64,000 bases of DNA from Chthoniobacteraceae bacterium (lineage in GTDB: Bacteria > Verrucomicrobiota > Verrucomicrobiia > Chthoniobacterales > Chthoniobacteraceae): NCBI GenBank assembly GCA_947471505.1, contig CANIWM010000011.1, forward strand, positions 1 to 64,000. The letters run 5' to 3'. The translations under genes and the position numbers were made by a program. The notes beneath the pieces were generated by a model. That model had not been told where the DNA came from. It made no database searches and was given only the letters and a program-made list of their open reading frames with translations. Positions 2,106 through 64,000 of the stretch are shown here, in pieces (the first letter of the stretch is position 1; each line of letters begins with the position of its first letter).

Positions 2106-2929
2106 GGAGCGAGGCGTTTCATCTCGGCGACAAGTTCTGCGGGCTGCCATTGGTTGCCGGTGAAGATTTTGGCGACGGTGCCGTCGGGGGCGATGATGAG
2201 AGTGCGGAGATTGTGATCGAGTTGGGCGTCTGCCTTACGGATTTGAAGCCCGGCGAAAGTGGCGAGCCGGGTGACTTCGGGGAGTTCGCCGGTGAGGAAG
2301 CGCCATTGGGCGGGGCGGGGCTGGAATTGTTTGGCGTAGTCGGCGAGGATTTGCGGGGTGTCGTTGGCGGGATCGATGGTGAGGGAAAGCAAGCGGAAGT
2401 TGTCGCCGGGAAGTTCGCGGGCGGCGGTGGCGAAGTGAGAGTTCATGCGCGGGCAGTAGTCGGGGAGGGGGCAGCGGGTATAGATGAATGTAAGGGCGAG
2501 AGTTTTGCCACGAAGGTCCGAGATGCGGAGGAGTTTTCCAGTGTCGTCGAGGAGCGTGGCGTCTGGGAGAAGGGAGCCGGGGGAGGGTGCGCCGACTTGG
2601 GCAGGTGGGGGCGGGGGGGCGGTGTGGCCGACTTTCTGGATCGCGAGGAGGGTGGTGTGGGTCTCGGTGACTTCGAGCTTTCCGGTGATGATATCGCCGG
2701 GGAGAAGCGCGGCGATTTCTGCGGAAGTGGCGACGTCGAACTCCATGGTCATCGCTTCCATGAATCCGGGGATGTCTTCGTGGGCGAGGCGGAGGAGTTT
2801 GCGCTCCGGTGCGACGCTGACGACGGTGCCGCGAACGGGGTAGATCTGCGAGGCGGGCGCGACTTTCGGTGCAGGGCGCGAGCACGCGGCGAGGAGGAGC
2901 GATACGAGGATAGAAAGGAGCCGTGGCAC
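2102..2929 (-). CDS. SCO1/SenC-family copper lipoprotein with N-terminal CusF-like domain
   Basis: 275 residues. The N-terminus (LLSILVSLLLAAC) is a lipoprotein signal with the lipobox LAAC at Cys16. Residues about 28-95 (YPVRGTVVSVAPERKLLRL, then PGFMEAMTMEF) match the CusF/copper-binding beta-barrel pattern. Residues about 115-270 form a thioredoxin-like SCO domain with FIYTRCPLPDYCPRM as the copper/thiol site and a distal HN near residue 240. The site is C-x5-C rather than the classical C-x3-C. The likely role is copper delivery to cytochrome oxidase CuA or redox protection at the outer face of the inner membrane. No oxidase genes are adjacent. It lies 43 bp downstream of a co-directional hypothetical gene. 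Confidence 0.85.
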   Translation of the reverse strand: MPRLLSILVSLLLAACSRPAPKVAPASQIYPVRGTVVSVAPERKLLRLAHEDIPGFMEAMTMEFDVATSAEIAALLPGDIITGKLEVTETHTTLLAIQKVGHTAPPPPPAQVGAPSPGSLLPDATLLDDTGKLLRISDLRGKTLALTFIYTRCPLPDYCPRMNSHFATAARELPGDNFRLLSLTIDPANDTPQILADYAKQFQPRPAQWRFLTGELPEVTRLATFAGLQIRKADAQLDHNLRTLIIAPDGTVAKIFTGNQWQPAELVAEMKRLAP

Positions 2930-2972
2930 GTTTGGAAACTTGGCAGTGGTGAGGGAAAGAGGCGAGGGGATT

Positions 2973-3512
2973 CTAGTCTCCGACGGCCTGGCGCCAGCAG
3001 TACGCGAAGAGGCCGTCGAATTCGACGCGCTGGAGCTTGATGCACTCGCCGACGAGTTCTTGCGCGCCGAATTTTGCCTGCTCGCAGAGGCCGGTGAGAA
3101 GGTAGGCGTCCCATGTTTCTTGCCGGGCCATGTTGGGGGAGTATTCGCACGCGGCGCTGTGGAGTTTGTGGGCGACGGGGAGTCGCCCGGCGCGGCGGAA
3201 CCAATAGCGGGCGTTATCGAAGTCGCCCTCGCGGCGGTGCATCATGCCGTGCCAGTAGCTGCCGAGGTCGCTCGTGTCGTCTTGGAAAATGGTGTGCGCC
3301 TCGTGGATGGCGTCCACGGCGTAAAGCAGCCCGCCGCGAATCCGGGCGAGCGCGCTCGCGTCGAGGAGGGGCTTGCCGTCGAAAAGTGTGGAGTCGTCGG
3401 CTTTGGCGATTTCGCCGGGGAGATTCCATGTGAGGGGGCTGGACGGGATGAGTTTCGTGAGCAGATCGGACGTGCGCAGGACGCGGTCTATGAATTCGGA
3501 GTATCGGGCCAT
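2973..3512 (-). CDS. Hypothetical protein with HEAHTIFQD/YWHGMMHRREGD motifs
   Basis: I chose the internal ATG at 3512 (MARYSEFIDRVL, 179 residues) because a GGAG ribosome-binding site stands just before it. The longer frame starting at 3632 would overlap the start of the divergent kinase gene. The protein has a central block with HEAHTIFQD, SYWHGMMHRREGDF and ARYWFRRAG, reminiscent of TPR-type helical proteins. I recognise it only as the kind of conserved hypothetical seen in PVC genomes and cannot assign a reaction. It precedes the SCO-type gene on the same strand and may be co-transcribed with it. Confidence 0.6.
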   Translation of the reverse strand: MARYSEFIDRVLRTSDLLTKLIPSSPLTWNLPGEIAKADDSTLFDGKPLLDASALARIRGGLLYAVDAIHEAHTIFQDDTSDLGSYWHGMMHRREGDFDNARYWFRRAGRLPVAHKLHSAACEYSPNMARQETWDAYLLTGLCEQAKFGAQELVGECIKLQRVEFDGLFAYCWRQAVGD

Positions 3513-3621
3513 GTTCTCCGTGAAAGCGAACGGGGCGGGGGAGTTCAAGCTCAACTCGCGGCGTCTCTGATAACGAGAGCGATCTGGCGTGGAATCTGCA
3601 CTAGGCGGGGCCGAACTCTCA

Positions 3622-5784
3622 ATGTCTGTCACTCAGAAATTAGCTCTAGAACCGCAACCTGGAACCGCCCCCGAGGTGCCTCGTCCGGTCGATTCTGCAC
3701 CGGTAAAGGGCGGGGTTGTAGCGAGATTGGAGTGCAGGCTGAAGGCATGGCTCGCCGAGCAGCCTCTCCAAAGGAAGTTTGTATGGGTGGTGGCGCTAGT
3801 GAGCAACGCGGTCCTTTTCACCGCAGTGGCGATCTTTTTTGCGTGCGATTTGTTGAGCGAAGTGGCGAGGCTCCGCGCCTCTGGGGCTGCGCTAGGGCGT
3901 GTCATCGCGGCGAACTGCCGGACATCGCTCACTTATGGCTATCGGCAGTCGGCGGCAGCGATGTTCGAGTCTTTTGCGAACCATCCAACGGTCGTAGGCG
4001 CGGCTCTTTATCAGGCGGATGGTGCGATTTTTGCGCAGTCGGCTCGATTGAAGAAGGTGCTAGCGATCAAGATTCCTGCGGATATGGCCGGTGGGGCGAG
4101 TATGTCGCTCGGCAGTATCCGGTATGTCGAGCCGGTCATGGAAAATGGGAAGCGCCTGGGGACTTTGATCATCGAGTCAGACATGGGGTCGATTTACCGG
4201 CGCATGGAGTTTTACGGCATCGCGAGCATCGTGGTGTTGATCGCGGCATCGCTCTTTGGCCACAGGCTGACGTCGCGGCTCAGCGGTATTATCGTCAAGC
4301 CCGTGATGGAGCTGTCGTCTGTGGCGGGCGCCGTGGCCGAAACGGGAGACTACGGGCTGCGGGCTGCGAAGTTTGGCGATGATGAAGTCGGGCAACTCGT
4401 GGATCGGTTCAATACGATGTTGGGCGAGATTCAGAAGCGCGATGAGGCGATCAGCGAGGCGCAACTCGACCTAGAGACGAAAGTGATGGAGCGGACGAGC
4501 GAACTGCACCACCGCATGGTGGAGGGGAAACGAAACGAGGAGCTAATTCGGGAGAACGAGAACCGCTACCGCAATCTGTTTGAGAACAACCCGATGCCGA
4601 TGTTCGTCATGGATTTGGAGTCGCTCAATTTCGTCGCGGTAAATAACGCGGCAATCAAGCACTATGGCTATTCGCAGGAAGAGTTTCTTCGGCTTTCATT
4701 GCCGTCTATTACGACTGGCGCGGACTACTCAGCGGTGATTCGCGCATTCCGCAGCAACGCAAAGTCGTTCAACGCGGGGGAGTGGAAGCATATACCGAAG
4801 CAGGGCGGTAACATCGAGGTGGAGTTGACGGCACACGCGATCATGTTCTCGGGCAAAGTGGCAAAGATTGTCCTCGCGAACGATGTCACCGCGCGCAACG
4901 CCGCCCAGCGGCAACTGGTGGAGCTGCACCGAAAGCTCATGGAGACTTCCCGGCAGGCCGGCATGGCGGAAGTCGCCACGGGCGTGCTGCACAATGTCGG
5001 CAACGTGCTCAATAGCGTAAACGTCTCGGCGACCGTTCTCGCCGACAGCGTGAAGAAGACCAAGGCAGGGAGCCTGAAGCGGGTCGTCGATCTTCTTGAG
5101 GCAAATCGAGCGGACCTTTCGTTGTTTTTCGCCCCTGGCGGAAAAGGCCAGATGCTCCCAGGCTACCTCGCGACACTCAACGATCAGATCGCCGTCGAAC
5201 AAGAGGCCCGGCTCTCGGAGCTTGCTCAGCTCACCAAGAACATCGCTCACATCAAAGACATCGTCGCGATGCAGCAAAGCTACGCAAAGGTCACGGGAGT
5301 GCTGGAGAATCACTCGCCGCACGTGCTTCTGGACGAGGCGATCCAACTCTCGGCAGCAGAGAATGGGCGGGCTCGCGTGGAGGTGGAGTGGACCTGCCCA
5401 TCCGACATGGCAGAGGTGATGATCGATCGCCACAAAGTCATGCAAATCCTTGTGAACCTGATCACGAACGCCCGTCAGGCGACGACCGAACAACCGGACG
5501 GCAAGCGGCTCATTTCCATCTCTGCCAAGGACACTGGCGGGATGGTGCGCATCTCCGTGCGGGATAACGGATGCGGAATCCCCAGCGAGAATCTGACGCG
5601 AATCTTCAACCATGGCTTCACCACAAAAAAGGACGGACACGGCTTCGGCCTTCACAGCGCCGCAAATGCCGCCAAGGAAATGGGCGGCGGGCTCTTTGCA
5701 GAAAGTGCTGGCGCGGGGTGCGGTGCGGCGTTCCATTTAGACATGCCAATCCGTTCCGTCACTTCTACGACGCCAAGCGAGTAA
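3622..5784 (+). CDS. Membrane PAS-domain sensor histidine kinase
   Basis: About 720 residues from the ATG at 3622; a GTG at 3589 is an in-frame alternative. Two transmembrane helices (about residues 50-80 and 195-215) enclose a periplasmic sensor loop. A HAMP-like linker, a coiled coil and a PAS domain (about 315-425) follow. The phosphoacceptor region reads ATGVLHNVGNVLNSVN, with His near residue 457. This is the LHNVGN variant of the H-box rather than HELRNPL. The ATPase domain (about 595-715) carries NLITNARQA, DNGCGIP and HGFGLH. A response-regulator gene follows 15 bp later, making a two-component pair. The signal sensed is unknown. Confidence 0.88.
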   Translation: MSVTQKLALEPQPGTAPEVPRPVDSAPVKGGVVARLECRLKAWLAEQPLQRKFVWVVALVSNAVLFTAVAIFFACDLLSEVARLRASGAALGRVIAANCRTSLTYGYRQSAAAMFESFANHPTVVGAALYQADGAIFAQSARLKKVLAIKIPADMAGGASMSLGSIRYVEPVMENGKRLGTLIIESDMGSIYRRMEFYGIASIVVLIAASLFGHRLTSRLSGIIVKPVMELSSVAGAVAETGDYGLRAAKFGDDEVGQLVDRFNTMLGEIQKRDEAISEAQLDLETKVMERTSELHHRMVEGKRNEELIRENENRYRNLFENNPMPMFVMDLESLNFVAVNNAAIKHYGYSQEEFLRLSLPSITTGADYSAVIRAFRSNAKSFNAGEWKHIPKQGGNIEVELTAHAIMFSGKVAKIVLANDVTARNAAQRQLVELHRKLMETSRQAGMAEVATGVLHNVGNVLNSVNVSATVLADSVKKTKAGSLKRVVDLLEANRADLSLFFAPGGKGQMLPGYLATLNDQIAVEQEARLSELAQLTKNIAHIKDIVAMQQSYAKVTGVLENHSPHVLLDEAIQLSAAENGRARVEVEWTCPSDMAEVMIDRHKVMQILVNLITNARQATTEQPDGKRLISISAKDTGGMVRISVRDNGCGIPSENLTRIFNHGFTTKKDGHGFGLHSAANAAKEMGGGLFAESAGAGCGAAFHLDMPIRSVTSTTPSE

Positions 5785-59050: not shown

Positions 59051-60733
59051 CTATGAGCACTCACAGACGATTCGGAAGCCGACGTCGTTGCTCTGATAAG
59101 TCGGGAGGTTTGAGTTCCGGGCGCAACAGCGGAGGCTGGAGATGCGTGATTTCCACGAGCCTCCACGATATACGCGCTTGGTGGTGATTTTGGTGGCTTT
59201 GGGGTTCACAGTCTCGCGACCTTTGTAGGGCTCGAATGCATCGAGGCACCACTCGAAGACGTTGCCAGCGAGATCTTCAATTCCGAACGGACTTGCCCCT
59301 CGGGGAAAGCTGCCGACGGGGGCTGTCTCGGCGAAGCCATCGTCCACGTTTGAGTCACGCCATGCGAATTGCGTGCGTACGTCGGCGAAATTTGCCAGAT
59401 GTCCGGTGACGGTGCGGTCGCCCCACGGGAAAAGTCGAGTCTCGCCGCCTCGTGCAGCATATTCCCACTCTGCTTCGCTCGGTAGGCGATATTTGCGGTT
59501 CTCGCGTTGACTGAGCCACTTGCAAAACTCCTCAGCTTCCACGGAACTGACGTAGATGACGGGGTGCGTATCGTCGGCCCACGCGCCACGTTTGTTGCGG
59601 TGGGCGGGGTCGTATTTCTCATACATCCCGTTGGTGATGGGCACGCGGCTCATGTGGAAAGCGGAGAGGATGACAGGGGTGACGGGTTGCTCGTTTTGTT
59701 GCCCATCTGGCGTTTCGCAGCCCATGCGGAATTGGCCGGTGGGGATGAGATACATGTCCAGCCCAAGCGTATTGATGAAGTTTGGATAACGGAGTTTCTC
59801 TTCAACTCGGGCGATGGGGGACATGTTAATCTCCTGTTTGGGCGCCGGGACCGGACGCACTGTGGAGGGGGAATGGCGCACCGGGGCGACAACGGGGCGT
59901 GGCGGAGCAATGGTTGCGGCCGCCCCCGCGCGCGGTGGTGGTCCGCTGGCTGGCATTGGCTTGGAGGCCATTTCTTCGAGGTATTCGTCAATCAGATCCT
60001 CCGCTTGCCCACCCGTGAGGCCAAGACCTTCTCCGAGGTTGCACATGGCGTCGCGCTGATCATCGGTCATCTCTTCGCCATCAAGGCACAGGCGCGACAT
60101 GCCTAGGATTTTGCGAAACTCGGCGAATGGTTCCCGCTCCTGCGGAACTGGTGACGCGATAGGGAGAATGTGGTGGGCGACCGGCAGTTGCTCAATAACC
60201 GGCACCTCCACGACTGGCGGTGGTGGAGGTATCGCGCCGATTCGTGCGCTCCCGGTGCGTTCGAGTTCGGCGTCGATGACGGGAATCATGTCGTCGTGTT
60301 TGAGCCCCATCGCTTCGCCGGCGGTGAAAAGACGAGCCTGACTCTCCTCCGTTAGCTTTTTCTCCGCGAGGGTGAAGGTGATGAGCTTCCGAAACTCCAC
60401 GACGGCCTTAGCGACCAATTGGAGGTGCAGTTCCGCGTCGTGTTTCGAGCGTTTCTCGGGATCGAGCAGGCGAGTGCGAGCTTCGGCGAGGAAGTGGGGC
60501 GCTTCATCGAGCCCTTGGCGCAACAGTTGCGCCATCGGGTTGCTCGGCTGGTTTTTGAGCGGGAGTTTTTTCTGCCACCAGACGTGGAGAAGCCGCGTAT
60601 TTTCCTCAATGAGATCGGCGCTAACGTTGCCTGTGTGATCGAGGCACAGGCGCTCGTAAAGGTTTGGCGAATTGTAACTCCGCCATCCTTCCCATCGGAG
60701 TGGATTGTCTGGTATCGGATTTGGAAGAGCCAA
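59051..60733 (-). CDS. J-like and SUMF1-domain fusion protein, non-catalytic
   Basis: 560 residues, third gene of an apparent operon. Residues about 20-100 look like a degenerate J-type domain (SPNLYERLCLDHTG, then EARTRLLDPEKRSKHDAEL) lacking the HPD motif. Two related helical segments follow (EESQARLFTAGEAMGLKHDD; DDQRDAMCNLGEGLGLTGGQ), then a Pro-rich linker. Residues about 325-560 are a SUMF1/formylglycine-generating-enzyme fold: PTGQFRMGCETPDG, YRLPSEAEWEYAARGG, GNVFEWCLDAFEPY and YRGGSWKSRISSLRCCARN. The CxxxxC pair of active FGE that should follow GGS is absent, so it is probably a binding module. It lies 29 bp after the Hsp70 gene. Confidence 0.82.
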   Translation of the reverse strand: MALPNPIPDNPLRWEGWRSYNSPNLYERLCLDHTGNVSADLIEENTRLLHVWWQKKLPLKNQPSNPMAQLLRQGLDEAPHFLAEARTRLLDPEKRSKHDAELHLQLVAKAVVEFRKLITFTLAEKKLTEESQARLFTAGEAMGLKHDDMIPVIDAELERTGSARIGAIPPPPPVVEVPVIEQLPVAHHILPIASPVPQEREPFAEFRKILGMSRLCLDGEEMTDDQRDAMCNLGEGLGLTGGQAEDLIDEYLEEMASKPMPASGPPPRAGAAATIAPPRPVVAPVRHSPSTVRPVPAPKQEINMSPIARVEEKLRYPNFINTLGLDMYLIPTGQFRMGCETPDGQQNEQPVTPVILSAFHMSRVPITNGMYEKYDPAHRNKRGAWADDTHPVIYVSSVEAEEFCKWLSQRENRKYRLPSEAEWEYAARGGETRLFPWGDRTVTGHLANFADVRTQFAWRDSNVDDGFAETAPVGSFPRGASPFGIEDLAGNVFEWCLDAFEPYKGRETVNPKATKITTKRVYRGGSWKSRISSLRCCARNSNLPTYQSNDVGFRIVCECS

Positions 60734-60762
60734 GTGCGTGGGCTAATGCGCGCCTTTGCCCG

Positions 60763-62337
60763 CTACGAAATCTGAAGCTGGGCGAGGTCTGCGGTTGCGA
60801 GTTCGAGTTCGTTTTCTGAAAGGCCCGTGTTCCTTGCGATGGAGACGCGGCTTGTGCGTCCGTATGCCTCCACTACCACTTCAAGCACCTGATTTTCGTT
60901 GTAGTGGTAAGTCAACTCGACCGGGGAGCCTTTCGGCAGGAAGGGCGGTAGCTCGATGTCGCAAATCCCCAGTGGCGTACACTCGCCGGGGACGGTGCTC
61001 TCGCCTTCGACGACCCGCACGATTGCGTTCTTCATATTGGCCTTTGCGGTGCCGAAGCTGTTTTTGATCTCGTTCGGGATGGTCGTCATTTTCGGAATCA
61101 TGGTGAATACGTATTCTTCCATCTTGCCGTCGTCCCAGAGTACTACGCCGAGGGTGTGGGTGGTGATGTTGGTGACCTTGATCAGGGAACCATCCGCAGC
61201 GGAGAAGACGTCCCGCACTTCGGACGCGATGCTGCGCTCGCCGATGTCATCTTCCTGCTGAAGCATGGAGAGCATCCCCTGTATCGCCGCACCAAGCGCC
61301 ACGGCTTCATCGGGGCTCACATCTTCGGCGACTGGACGGTTCGACGATTCCGTAATCATGGTCCGCACAGAAGGCACGCGGGTCATACCTCCTGTGAGCA
61401 AAACGCGGTCGATATCCTCCCAGCCGAGTTGCGCTTCCTGCATGACGATTTCGCAGATGGATTTGCACTTTTCGATGAGGTGTTGCGTCTTGGCCTCGAA
61501 GTCTTCGCGAGTGAGTTCGATTTTCACGCTCCTGCCGTTGTAGCTGTGGACGAGCGTCGTCCGCTGGCGCGTGGAGAGTTGCACTTTAGCGGTGAGGGCG
61601 CGGTTATAAAGGTCTTGGTAGCTCTGGAGATCGAGCAGGGGATTCTCGCCGTGCTGCTTATCAAACTCGTCGGCCACCCAATTCACGATCACGTCGTCCC
61701 AGTCTTTACCCCCGAGGCGGTGGTCACCATTGCTCGCGACCATCCGAATGTGGTGCCCTTCGATGCGCATGATCGTGACGTCGAACGTCCCGCCACCGAG
61801 ATCGAACACGAAGACCGTCTGGTCTTGGTCCAGCTTATCAAGGCCGTATGCGAGAGCCGCCGAGGTGGGTTCGTTGATGATTTGCAAAACGTTCAATCCT
61901 GCAAGCTGCCCAGCGTGGAGAGTCGCGGTCCGTTCTGCGTCGTTGAAATACGCGGGCACCGTGATGACGGCGTCGGTCACCTGCTCGCCGAGATACTTTT
62001 CCGCATCGCTCTTCAGCTTGCGGAGGATGACGGCCGAGAGCTCCTCCGCCGAATACACTTTGCCGCCAAACGCCCGAGAAAATTGGGATTTCGATTTCCC
62101 CATTTCGCGTTTGATGAAATCGACAATCTTGTCGGGCTCCGCGACGGCGTTCTGCTTCGCGACCGTTCCTACGACGGCATTAGCTCCGTCGAACAAGATC
62201 ACGGAGGGTGTGATACGTTCGCTTTCCGCATTGGGAATGATCTGAGGTTTTCCGTAGGCGTCGATATGGGCGACCGCACAGAATGTGGTTCCGAGGTCGA
62301 TACCGATTGATTTACGATTTGTAGGATTCTCTGACAT
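60763..62337 (-). CDS. Hsp70 family protein without C-terminal lid
   Basis: 524 residues from the ATG at 62337. The ATPase domain has the phosphate loops IGIDLGTTFCAVAHID and VFVFDLGGGTFDVTIM, and VLLTGGMTRVPSVRTMI. A substrate-binding beta-domain follows (LGICDIELPPFLPKGSPVEL; ENQVLEVVVEAYGR). The sequence ends at LQIS, where DnaK would continue with the helical lid and a tail (DnaK is about 640 residues). It is therefore a lidless, specialised Hsp70. Its ATP cycle probably depends on the GrpE-like protein encoded just upstream and the J-like domain of the gene downstream. Confidence 0.9.
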   Translation of the reverse strand: MSENPTNRKSIGIDLGTTFCAVAHIDAYGKPQIIPNAESERITPSVILFDGANAVVGTVAKQNAVAEPDKIVDFIKREMGKSKSQFSRAFGGKVYSAEELSAVILRKLKSDAEKYLGEQVTDAVITVPAYFNDAERTATLHAGQLAGLNVLQIINEPTSAALAYGLDKLDQDQTVFVFDLGGGTFDVTIMRIEGHHIRMVASNGDHRLGGKDWDDVIVNWVADEFDKQHGENPLLDLQSYQDLYNRALTAKVQLSTRQRTTLVHSYNGRSVKIELTREDFEAKTQHLIEKCKSICEIVMQEAQLGWEDIDRVLLTGGMTRVPSVRTMITESSNRPVAEDVSPDEAVALGAAIQGMLSMLQQEDDIGERSIASEVRDVFSAADGSLIKVTNITTHTLGVVLWDDGKMEEYVFTMIPKMTTIPNEIKNSFGTAKANMKNAIVRVVEGESTVPGECTPLGICDIELPPFLPKGSPVELTYHYNENQVLEVVVEAYGRTSRVSIARNTGLSENELELATADLAQLQIS

Positions 62338-62394
62338 GGCTAGGGCTGTTTGGTATGGCTTACGTCGCAATAAATGTGCCGAGAAGCGTTTGAT

Positions 62395-63207
62395 TTACAC
62401 ATTGGATTCGAGTGTTTCTGAATTGCCGGCGGGGGATTCCTTCCATTTTTTAATGACGACTTCTTCGGGGCGAATTGGGCGATCTTTCCAGACGAAGCCC
62501 CGTTTGAGGACTTTCACAATCTCCTGATCCCTCGCAGGATCATCCGTCGTTTCCACCGACATGGCTTTCTGGGTTCGCTTGTCGAGTTTTTCAGACGTCA
62601 ACGGCACTAGCGTGACATCGAGGCGCTCGAGGACCTCAAGGATGAAATGGGTGTTGTGGTCGAGGTTCATCACCGCCTGTCGCATGTTTTCTAGCAGACT
62701 GAAGGTGCTGCCTCCGGCCTCCCGTTCGTCGAACGATGTAATTGTCAGCGTAAGCTGCCTGTGGATGTCCGCCATGTCGTCATATACGGAAATGAGGTCG
62801 CGAATCACGGGGCGAAGGACCGATTCAAGGATGAAGGCATCCTTGTAAGTCTTGAGCTCGGTGTGCAGTGCCTCAAACATTGCTTTGCTCACCGTATTCC
62901 GAGACTCCAGCGACTGCTTTGTTTCGGCGAGCGTCTGCGGCACGGACTCGCTGGCTGCTGCTAGTCTGTCCAATCGATCGAGCGTCGCGAGTTGCTCGTT
63001 TTGGGAGCGGTGCAGCGATTCCATACTGTCCAAGACTCGTCGGACGAGTGATTGCACGTCTGGTGCTGCCGTCGGCCTTGGCGCGTGGACGTGAGCGCTC
63101 AGTTCAGCGTCGCGCGATTGCTCAGCTTCGATGACGAGAGCCTGCAATTGAGCGCTGAATTCACTGTCCATGTTCGGAATGGGATCGACCATATTCGGCG
63201 GATGCAA
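62395..63207 (-). CDS. GrpE-like nucleotide exchange factor
   Basis: 270 residues; the first methionine could also be MVDPIPN or MDSEFS a few codons later. A long coiled-coil (about 45-160) precedes a GrpE-like region: KDAFILESVLRPVIRDLIS (helix with the DNL/LRP-type pattern), ILEVLERLDVTLVPL and the C-terminal beta strand VKVLKRGFVWKDRPIRPEEV, which parallels GrpE's V..GY...dRvlRPA. It would release ADP from the neighbouring Hsp70. It is longer and more divergent than housekeeping GrpE and is the first gene of the operon, 57 bp before Hsp70. Confidence 0.75.
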   Translation of the reverse strand: MHPPNMVDPIPNMDSEFSAQLQALVIEAEQSRDAELSAHVHAPRPTAAPDVQSLVRRVLDSMESLHRSQNEQLATLDRLDRLAAASESVPQTLAETKQSLESRNTVSKAMFEALHTELKTYKDAFILESVLRPVIRDLISVYDDMADIHRQLTLTITSFDEREAGGSTFSLLENMRQAVMNLDHNTHFILEVLERLDVTLVPLTSEKLDKRTQKAMSVETTDDPARDQEIVKVLKRGFVWKDRPIRPEEVVIKKWKESPAGNSETLESNV

Positions 63208-63254: not shown

Positions 63255-64000
63255 CTATTGCGGCACGATCCGAATGTCGGCTTCCCCTCGCAGTTCGATC
63301 TCCGGCGTCTCTTTATAAAGGACGAGTTCTCCGCGCACTTCCACGGTCTTGCCTTCCAAGCTCTCGATCTTTCCGCCCGCTACCCCTGCTACCTTTGCGA
63401 GATGATCCTTCTTCACGATTGCTACAAACTTTCCACGTGGGCTCCCTTCAAAGTTGATGAAGGTCATCGTCTCCGTTTTCGTCGCACCGACCCCCGTGAC
63501 CTTTCCTCGGATGGTCACCTGCTTTCCTATGGCGGCGCGGATCGCGGCATCATCGCTCGCGGCGAGCACGCCTGGTAGCTCCACCGGCACGCTTGGCGCG
63601 GGGATACTTGCCAGTGCATTGAGGCCCGCTGCACCGTCGATGACGGGGAGAAAGTCTGCCTTGGAAAGATCGATGTCCACTACCACGGGATTGTGATCAC
63701 TCAGTCCCGGATACGGCTTCACAAATGCCACCGGACGCCCGAGCCCCGCAGTGAGAATGTGGTCGAAGCAATTGTCCGGGTAGTTCCCCTCTCCGGGAAT
63801 CGTCGTCCGGTTTGCAAACGGCACGCCTTTGTGCGTCCACCACAGCCCAGCCTCAATGAAGCCCGCAATCGTCGGGTCTTTTGCAAATTTCGGGTCGTCG
63901 ATCGACGTATTCATATCGCCCGCCACCACCACGGCGCACGGTCCGCGCTTGCCGTAAAGTGCAAGCATCTCTTGGATGTGCGCGATGAGTTGCCGCGCCG
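63255..64000 (-). CDS. Endonuclease/exonuclease/phosphatase protein with OB-fold domain, 5' truncated by window
   Basis: The frame runs off the window end, so only the C-terminal 248 or so residues are seen. The first part has the exonuclease III-like VVAGDMNTSIDDP, NCFDHILTAGLG and YPGLSDHNPVVVDID, with catalytic Asp/Asn/His. After a linker an OB-fold-like region follows (IGKQVTIRGKVTGVGATKT, ESLEGKTVEVRGEL, EIELRGEADIRI). This domain pair is typical of secreted nucleases of the ExeM/nuclease-lamin group. It is followed by the chaperone operon on the same strand after 47 bp. Confidence 0.82.
   Translation of the reverse strand, partial: ARQLIAHIQEMLALYGKRGPCAVVVAGDMNTSIDDPKFAKDPTIAGFIEAGLWWTHKGVPFANRTTIPGEGNYPDNCFDHILTAGLGRPVAFVKPYPGLSDHNPVVVDIDLSKADFLPVIDGAAGLNALASIPAPSVPVELPGVLAASDDAAIRAAIGKQVTIRGKVTGVGATKTETMTFINFEGSPRGKFVAIVKKDHLAKVAGVAGGKIESLEGKTVEVRGELVLYKETPEIELRGEADIRIVPQ

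Follow-up and report, generated by a model that had tools for sequence, protein, structure and literature searches.

A conserved gene triad of Chthoniobacterales encoding an Hsp70 without R167 and a J-like/SUMF1 protein without HPD

We describe a triad of adjacent genes, here called G, H and J, in a 64,000-nucleotide stretch of DNA from a Chthoniobacteraceae bacterium (positions 1 to 64,000 of contig CANIWM010000011.1, assembly GCA_947471505.1; hereafter the window). They encode, respectively, a GrpE-like protein, an Hsp70 with almost no lid, and a protein in which a J-like domain is joined through helical segments and a Pro-rich linker to a SUMF1 domain. The triad is a real, conserved and unusual variant of the Hsp70 machine, and its points of interest are a double loss, of the HPD (His-Pro-Asp) motif from J and of the arginine equivalent to R167 of Escherichia coli DnaK from H, and a linkage to haem-synthesis genes. 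The HPD motif is regarded as the hallmark trigger of Hsp70 machines, and a system that has lost both sides of the contact but kept the ATPase residues and gene order is in effect a double mutant made by nature. With it one can ask experimentally whether a J domain is able to drive an Hsp70 in the absence of HPD, and which residues substitute for it. The initial annotation of the window was right in outline as regards the J-like and GrpE folds, both supported by predicted models, and the conservation of the triplet; it missed the loss of R167, the remodeling of the linker and the haem neighborhood.

Gene order and domain architecture

The three co-directional genes lie on the minus strand in the order G-H-J, and their open reading frame (ORF) coordinates agree with those first annotated, including the gaps of 57 bp between G and H and 29 bp between H and J. 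The start codon of H is the ATG at 62337. The features are as follows, all on the minus strand, with the basis of each in brackets:

62395..63207, minus: G, GrpE-like protein, 270 residues (Pfam GrpE match and predicted model)
60763..62337, minus: H, Hsp70, 524 residues, with nucleotide-binding domain (NBD) and beta substrate-binding domain (SBD-beta), ending at about DnaK residue 525 (PF00012; DnaK alignment)
61882..61884, minus: codon of H for Gln152, at the DnaK R167 position (DnaK alignment; codon place from the ORF)
61179..61245, minus: extra residues of H between NBD and SBD-beta, approximate extent, with the VLLLD linker replaced (alignment blocks, limits by eye)
59051..60733, minus: J, J-like/helical/Pro-rich/SUMF1 fusion, 560 residues, TTG start (ORF, Pfam, alignment, model)
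60410..60673, minus: predicted J-like domain, residues 21-108 (structural comparison of the model; hhalign against canonical J domains)
60554..60574, minus: QKKLPLK, residues 54-60, at the would-be HPD site (J alignments)
60236..60409, minus: helical segment 1, residues 109-166 (model; related to segment 2)
59948..60139, minus: helical segment 2, residues 199-262 (model; related to segment 1)
59066..59758, minus: SUMF1/FGE-sulfatase domain, residues 326-556 (PF03781, E 1.4e-48; phmmer against PDB, FGE/SUMF1 chains, E 2e-31)
59108..59164, minus: GGSWKSRISSLRCCAR, stretch without the CxxxxC pair of formylglycine-generating enzyme (FGE) (CxxxxC in 0/68)

Elsewhere the host genome has a grpE gene adjoining dnaJ on one contig and two longer DnaK-type genes, and the G-H-J triad is therefore an extra set. 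One further Hsp70 match in the genome is short and weak. The genome also encodes HPD-bearing J proteins (L159-L161).

Loss of both sides of the J/Hsp70 contact

H matches the Pfam HSP70 model with an E-value of 4e-121. We aligned 59 H proteins, numbered by E. coli DnaK, and used an overlapping set of 37 H frames as a check. The ATPase residues D8, T11, K70, E171, D194, T199 and D201 are intact in all 59 proteins. At the R167 position, Arg occurs in neither set (0/59 and 0/37), the residue being Gln in 55 of the aligned proteins, Ser in two, and Lys and Asn in one each; it is kept as Arg in DnaK, HscA, HscC and both other DnaKs of the host genome. The K155 position is hydrophobic in 59/59. A different sequence takes the place of the conserved hydrophobic VLLLD linker, which is lengthened by an insertion ahead of it: L390 has become Gln, Lys, Glu or Arg and L392 is no longer Leu in every protein (59/59 each), and the D393 position is Asn in 49 and Asp in ten. 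The D477 position is changed as well, although one of the host's own DnaKs (L002), HscA and HscC differ there too; D481, another partner of R167, was dropped as a marker, Asn being present at that position in the host's own DnaKs too. H was initially annotated as stopping before the lid. The alpha-helical lid is indeed nearly absent, with DnaK positions 536 and 540 missing in 59/59, but about 20 residues aligning with its start are retained; as H ends at about residue 525, it can have no more than the beginning of the lid.

On the J side, WWQKK replaces HPD in all 38 aligned J proteins, whose loci came from a protein search in which the motif was not used, and HPD is found in none of them. Among the 74 J frames found by pattern, in a set of loci partly selected on the QKKLPL stretch itself, QKKLPL is present in 72 and carries single variants in two, and HPD is seen in none over the part examined. 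The place of HPD in the alignment falls either on Q54-K55-K56, by an ungapped reading of helix II, or on L57-P58-L59, by hhalign; neither is HPD. The lack of HPD had been recognized from the beginning, and can now be refined in that the replacing motif is invariant rather than eroded.

The significance of these changes can be appreciated from the canonical contact. As described in PMC8215388, D35 of the HPD motif hydrogen-bonds with R167 and Q378 of DnaK, H33 touches L391 of the linker and P34 touches P419; R167 is also described as pairing with D393 within Hsp70 (PMC7289447). The account in PMC13012618 reports that DnaJ D35N rescues the nonfunctional DnaK R167A, and that a triple change of HPD to AAA does not fully abolish activation in some systems, other J-domain residues contributing. 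HscA and HscC retain R167, and their E. coli partners HscB and DjlC carry HPD. With HPD missing from J and R167 from H, both halves of the central ion pair have been lost in a gene pair that is almost always adjacent. We infer that J and H might now form a new mutual contact, part of the docking surface (Q378, P419) remaining in H. A bolder reading, which we offer only tentatively, is that a new and mutually consistent interface has taken the place of the HPD-R167 switch, described as universal, in J and H alike. The two would then be a naturally orthogonal J/Hsp70 pair serving the supply of haem and cytochromes. If this were true, such a pair would be useful as a tool.

Predicted folds of J and G and the SUMF1 domain

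An AlphaFold2 model of J residues 1-290, made from 62 sequences, has a predicted local distance difference test (pLDDT) score of 87.1 and a predicted template modeling (pTM) score of 0.58. In a structural comparison of this model, titles of J-domain, Hsp40 or HscB type account for 31 of the first 41 rows; the titles of the other ten name no J domain (mitoribosome, complex I, radial spoke, RAC, xRbj). The N-terminus of J, at about residues 21-108, is accordingly predicted by the model to have the J-domain fold, close to the residues 20-100 originally proposed, with a weak sequence link. The N-terminus of the window J has no match among Pfam models, its relatives showing scattered weak ones at best (E 0.006), and a PDB profile search with the J-like domain returned nothing related; only by comparing structures was a relationship found. 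The two helical segments that follow were suspected of being related to each other, and a single hhalign comparison bears this out (probability 88%, E 3e-6). Neither has a convincing Pfam match, and a TerB-like identity considered for them was dropped, having no support in the Pfam scan. The helix-turn-helix model of NirDL-like siroheme decarboxylases gives weak matches in 11 of 62 relatives of J residues 1-290 (alignment A2; best E 0.012), which are probably due to chance, though worth recording beside tetrapyrrole genes.

G scores 48.8 bits against the Pfam GrpE model, whose cut-off is 25.8, and its predicted model (pLDDT 86.4, pTM 0.60) recovers GrpE chains in 11 of 11 Foldseek matches to PDB at E<=0.001. 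The top five rows of a structural comparison are likewise all GrpE (Z 12.6 to 11.4, root-mean-square deviation (rmsd) 7 to 10). G therefore has the GrpE family profile and, in its predicted model, the GrpE fold first ascribed to it.

As to the SUMF1 domain, CxxxxC is absent within 16 residues after GGS in all 68 J frames longer than 450 residues in which the GGS stretch was found, so that the absence initially noted in the window extends to the family. GGSW(K/R)SR is conserved in J, and the C-terminus is mostly CEC. Relatives of the fold recovered by phmmer against PDB include FGE, EgtB, PvdO and CalU17, and the window J falls below every listed NCBIfam cut-off. The missing cysteine pair and this shortfall thus leave FGE, EgtB and PvdO activities unsupported. 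Chemistry of another kind is possible, and a catalytically dead domain, as suggested in the initial annotation, could instead select clients.

Phyletic distribution and selection

A profile search detected J in 74 of 213 genomes of the order Chthoniobacterales. Across the phylum it was found in five of 387 sampled genomes, the host included, four of them in the order; this sample was queried with J residues 1-290 and at most six candidates were scored per genome, so misses are possible. Among 97 near relatives, the host again included, the N-terminal part of J is present in 41 and G in 38, three of the latter being weak matches (G052, G076 and G082, E 9e-5 to 6e-4) that may be ordinary GrpE. 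A pattern-based scan of named genomes yielded 74 J loci, among them that of Chthoniobacter flavus, whose titles name Verrucomicrobiota groups or genera except for one 'PVC group bacterium'. Phyla other than Verrucomicrobiota were covered by this pattern scan for close relatives only, and a distant form is possible there. Co-occurrence of the triplet across PVC genomes had been proposed as a check. The triplet is indeed conserved, but this was found for a single order and for one genome elsewhere in the class, and not across PVC.

G, H and J occur together in this order in 54 of the 74 loci, with split frames in a few (L095, L100, L125). The remaining 20 comprise 11 cut at a contig end, six with H-J and no match to G though sequence was available, and three with J alone. 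In the draft of Chthoniobacter flavus Ellin428 (L095:8388-11696), H and J are split across frames, which could reflect sequencing error or decay. J proteins of the same make-up with no adjoining match to G or H were seen in L153, L154, L158 and L084, and in G085 such a solitary J is a second copy beside a full triad elsewhere in the genome.

The ratio of nonsynonymous to synonymous substitution rates (dN/dS) is about 0.01 to 0.2 in ten comparisons over four locus pairs; for J of the window against L085, for example, dN is 0.035 and dS 0.402. The triad is under strong purifying selection. A search of 72,556 plasmid records with J residues 1-290 gave no match, and a pattern scan of viral contigs found no close relative of J. 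The distribution is best read as that of a vertically inherited, dedicated Hsp70 set.

Association with haem-synthesis genes

We examined the neighborhood in the 55 loci that include G or H and extend at least 1500 bases upstream. In 49 of these a cobA/hemD-type fusion gene lies directly upstream of the triad on the same strand, and in 41 of the 49 it is within 60 bases or overlaps, by longest-frame coordinates. Further upstream are hemC (41/55), hemA (40/55) and a CcsB-like gene (37/55). In L131 the hemA, hemC and methyltransferase products pass their NCBIfam cut-offs, and the CcsB-like gene and the uroporphyrinogen-III synthase part fall below theirs. A secDF cluster is present in 25 loci, in 24 of which it lies downstream of J on the other strand. 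These loci are related and the counts are hence not independent events; the linkage is, however, seen in families f1, f4 and f8 and is therefore probably ancestral. It offers a concrete place to seek clients.

In HemA of two relatives (L131:3967-5043 and L092:3323-4966) the match to the model, which has 416 positions, stops at about position 335. A role of the triad in compensating for a shortened glutamyl-tRNA reductase was considered and rejected, as PF00745, the C-terminal dimer domain of HemA, was found in none of the 97 relatives, with or without J, in a search for which nine of 14 control genomes were positive.

A proposed mechanism and its alternatives

We give about even chances to the view that G-H-J forms a dedicated second Hsp70 system, in which the J/Hsp70 contact is re-coded, the SUMF1 domain selects clients, and the clients are haem-linked. 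Under this proposal H would be an ATP-hydrolyzing Hsp70 which, having almost no lid, would bind and release clients rapidly. J would be its co-chaperone, with the J-like helices and the WWQKKLPLK segment docking on ATP-bound H, and the Pro-rich linker would tether the SUMF1 domain, which would recognize a small set of clients and hand them to the open peptide groove of H. G would act as the exchange factor that resets H. The trigger would have been replaced on both sides, by WWQKKLPLK in J and by Gln with a longer, remodeled linker in H; such a pair would consequently be orthogonal to the normal DnaK/DnaJ of the cell. Given that the triad ends a row of haem-synthesis genes in most relatives, the likeliest clients would be enzymes or cytochromes serving tetrapyrrole supply, or possibly cytochrome c supply. 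The initial description of the triad as a self-contained chaperone system gains plausibility from the canonical grpE-dnaJ pair and the two further DnaK-type genes that the genome carries separately.

Several observations weigh against this proposal. The best J-domain match to the J model (Z 8.8 over 71 residues at rmsd 2.0, against Z 4.8 for the first row that is plainly unrelated) lies in the range below about 13 in which the Z of a helical model can reflect a common arrangement. Foldseek alone ranks J domains first, yet with E about 1, and in one hhalign comparison with canonical J domains the J-like domain obtained E 3e-4 with a probability of only 41%. J also occurs alone. The interface is not altered throughout, since the H proteins compared retain Q378 and P419, at which HPD also contacts DnaK. 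With respect to G, the DnaK cleft salt-bridge partners R56, E264 and E267 are replaced in the H sequences shown, and H has a six-residue deletion close to the GrpE-signature loop, both of which argue against G acting exactly like GrpE; the host DnaK L002 has a deletion near this loop too, shorter than that of H. Losses of such cleft and loop features in HscA and HscC are described as accompanying non-use of GrpE (PMC8215388). G is moreover undetectable in all five genomes of one genus-level group (L098, L105, L106, L110, L112). The haem linkage is lost in the window genome, where hemC is on another contig (C15), and the cobA/hemD link is missing in six of the 55 loci; in the sole relative outside the order (L172:346-8168) the triad instead follows DUF58, BatA/von Willebrand factor A (vWA), DUF4175 and amidotransferase-like genes. 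The linkage may thus be an inherited neighborhood only.

The retained Q378 and P419, together with the HPD-bearing J proteins of the genome, would also fit an alternative in which J is an inactive, Pam16-like tether or regulator and H is triggered by an ordinary HPD-bearing DnaJ of the cell. We regard this as unlikely, since R167, without which DnaK is described as nonfunctional unless DnaJ carries D35N (PMC13012618), is absent from H throughout, and since the motif of J is invariant rather than eroding. Somewhat less likely still is that the SUMF1 domain is an active enzyme, an oxidase or a ligand-modifying one, whose substrate the Hsp70 parts merely fold or load: its fold relatives FGE, EgtB, PvdO and CalU17, the conserved GGSW(K/R)SR and the mostly CEC terminus would suit such a role, whereas the uniform absence of the FGE cysteine pair and the failure of the window J to reach any NCBIfam cut-off speak against it.

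The similarity of its part list to certain GTPase-centered conflict systems, in which Kaur et al. 2020 (PMC7159879) describe HSP70 and GrpE together with a DnaJ-fused protein, joined in some of the planctomycete versions by FGS effectors, raises the question of whether the triad is a defense module of this kind, and the DUF58 and BatA/vWA genes adjoining the triad in the relative outside the order point the same way. We consider this improbable. A GTPase is absent among the adjacent genes of the window (the neighbors in relatives were clustered, not scanned for GTPases), the plasmid records gave no match to J residues 1-290 and the pattern scan of viral contigs no close relative, and the triad holds a stable position in the haem gene row under strong purifying selection.

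Relationship to known systems

Like DnaK-DnaJ-GrpE, the triad combines an Hsp70 NBD with complete ATPase residues and an SBD-beta with genes for partners of predicted J and GrpE fold; unlike that system it has no R167, VLLLD or HPD and almost no lid, and its J protein bears a SUMF1 domain. Closer in plan are HscA-HscB and HscC-DjlC, where a specialized Hsp70 has a J partner of its own, a pairing that is conjectural here, and where GrpE-related features of the NBD are lost. These pairs, however, keep R167 and HPD and are described as GrpE-independent in PMC8215388, whereas H adjoins a GrpE-like gene in most loci. By analogy, its closest functional counterpart is probably a dedicated Hsp70/J pair of the HscA/HscB type to which a GrpE-like factor has been added.

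Pam16 lacks HPD. J resembles Pam16/Tim16 in its predicted J-like fold without this motif, but Pam16 acts as a pair with Pam18 on a mitochondrial Hsp70 of the ordinary type, whereas in the triad the Hsp70 is changed as well. The J-like fold of Pam16/Tim16 is described as incapable of stimulating Hsp70.

Among published part lists the nearest is that of the GTPase-centered conflict systems of Kaur et al. 2020 (PMC7159879), in which GAP1-N2 occurs with HSP70, GrpE and a DnaJ-fused FNIII protein; HSP70, GrpE, a J-fused protein and the FGS domains of some planctomycete versions are shared with the triad. The triad differs in having no adjacent GTPase in the window, a fixed chromosomal place in relatives, where its surroundings belong to core metabolism, and a J-like domain without HPD. 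With the FGE/SUMF1 family J shares the FGE-sulfatase domain without its active-site CxxxxC. Lacking the complete lid, R167, VLLLD, HPD and CxxxxC, the triad is not a canonical DnaK system, nor J a canonical J-domain protein or an FGE. A description of the G-H-J triad was not found among the best matches listed from the open-licence literature.

Further observations on neighboring genes

The genus-level group with no detectable G retains H-J behind cobA/hemD. In L132 a distinct Hsp70-like gene (2904-4676, 590 residues) lies on the opposite strand near H-J. The genes adjoining the triad in the window encode a pyridoxal phosphate-dependent decarboxylase, a DciA-like protein and an exonuclease/endonuclease/phosphatase-like protein. 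The last of these occupies 63255-63998, upstream of G, where relatives have haem genes; it scores just under the Pfam cut-off and gives a weak OB-fold match.

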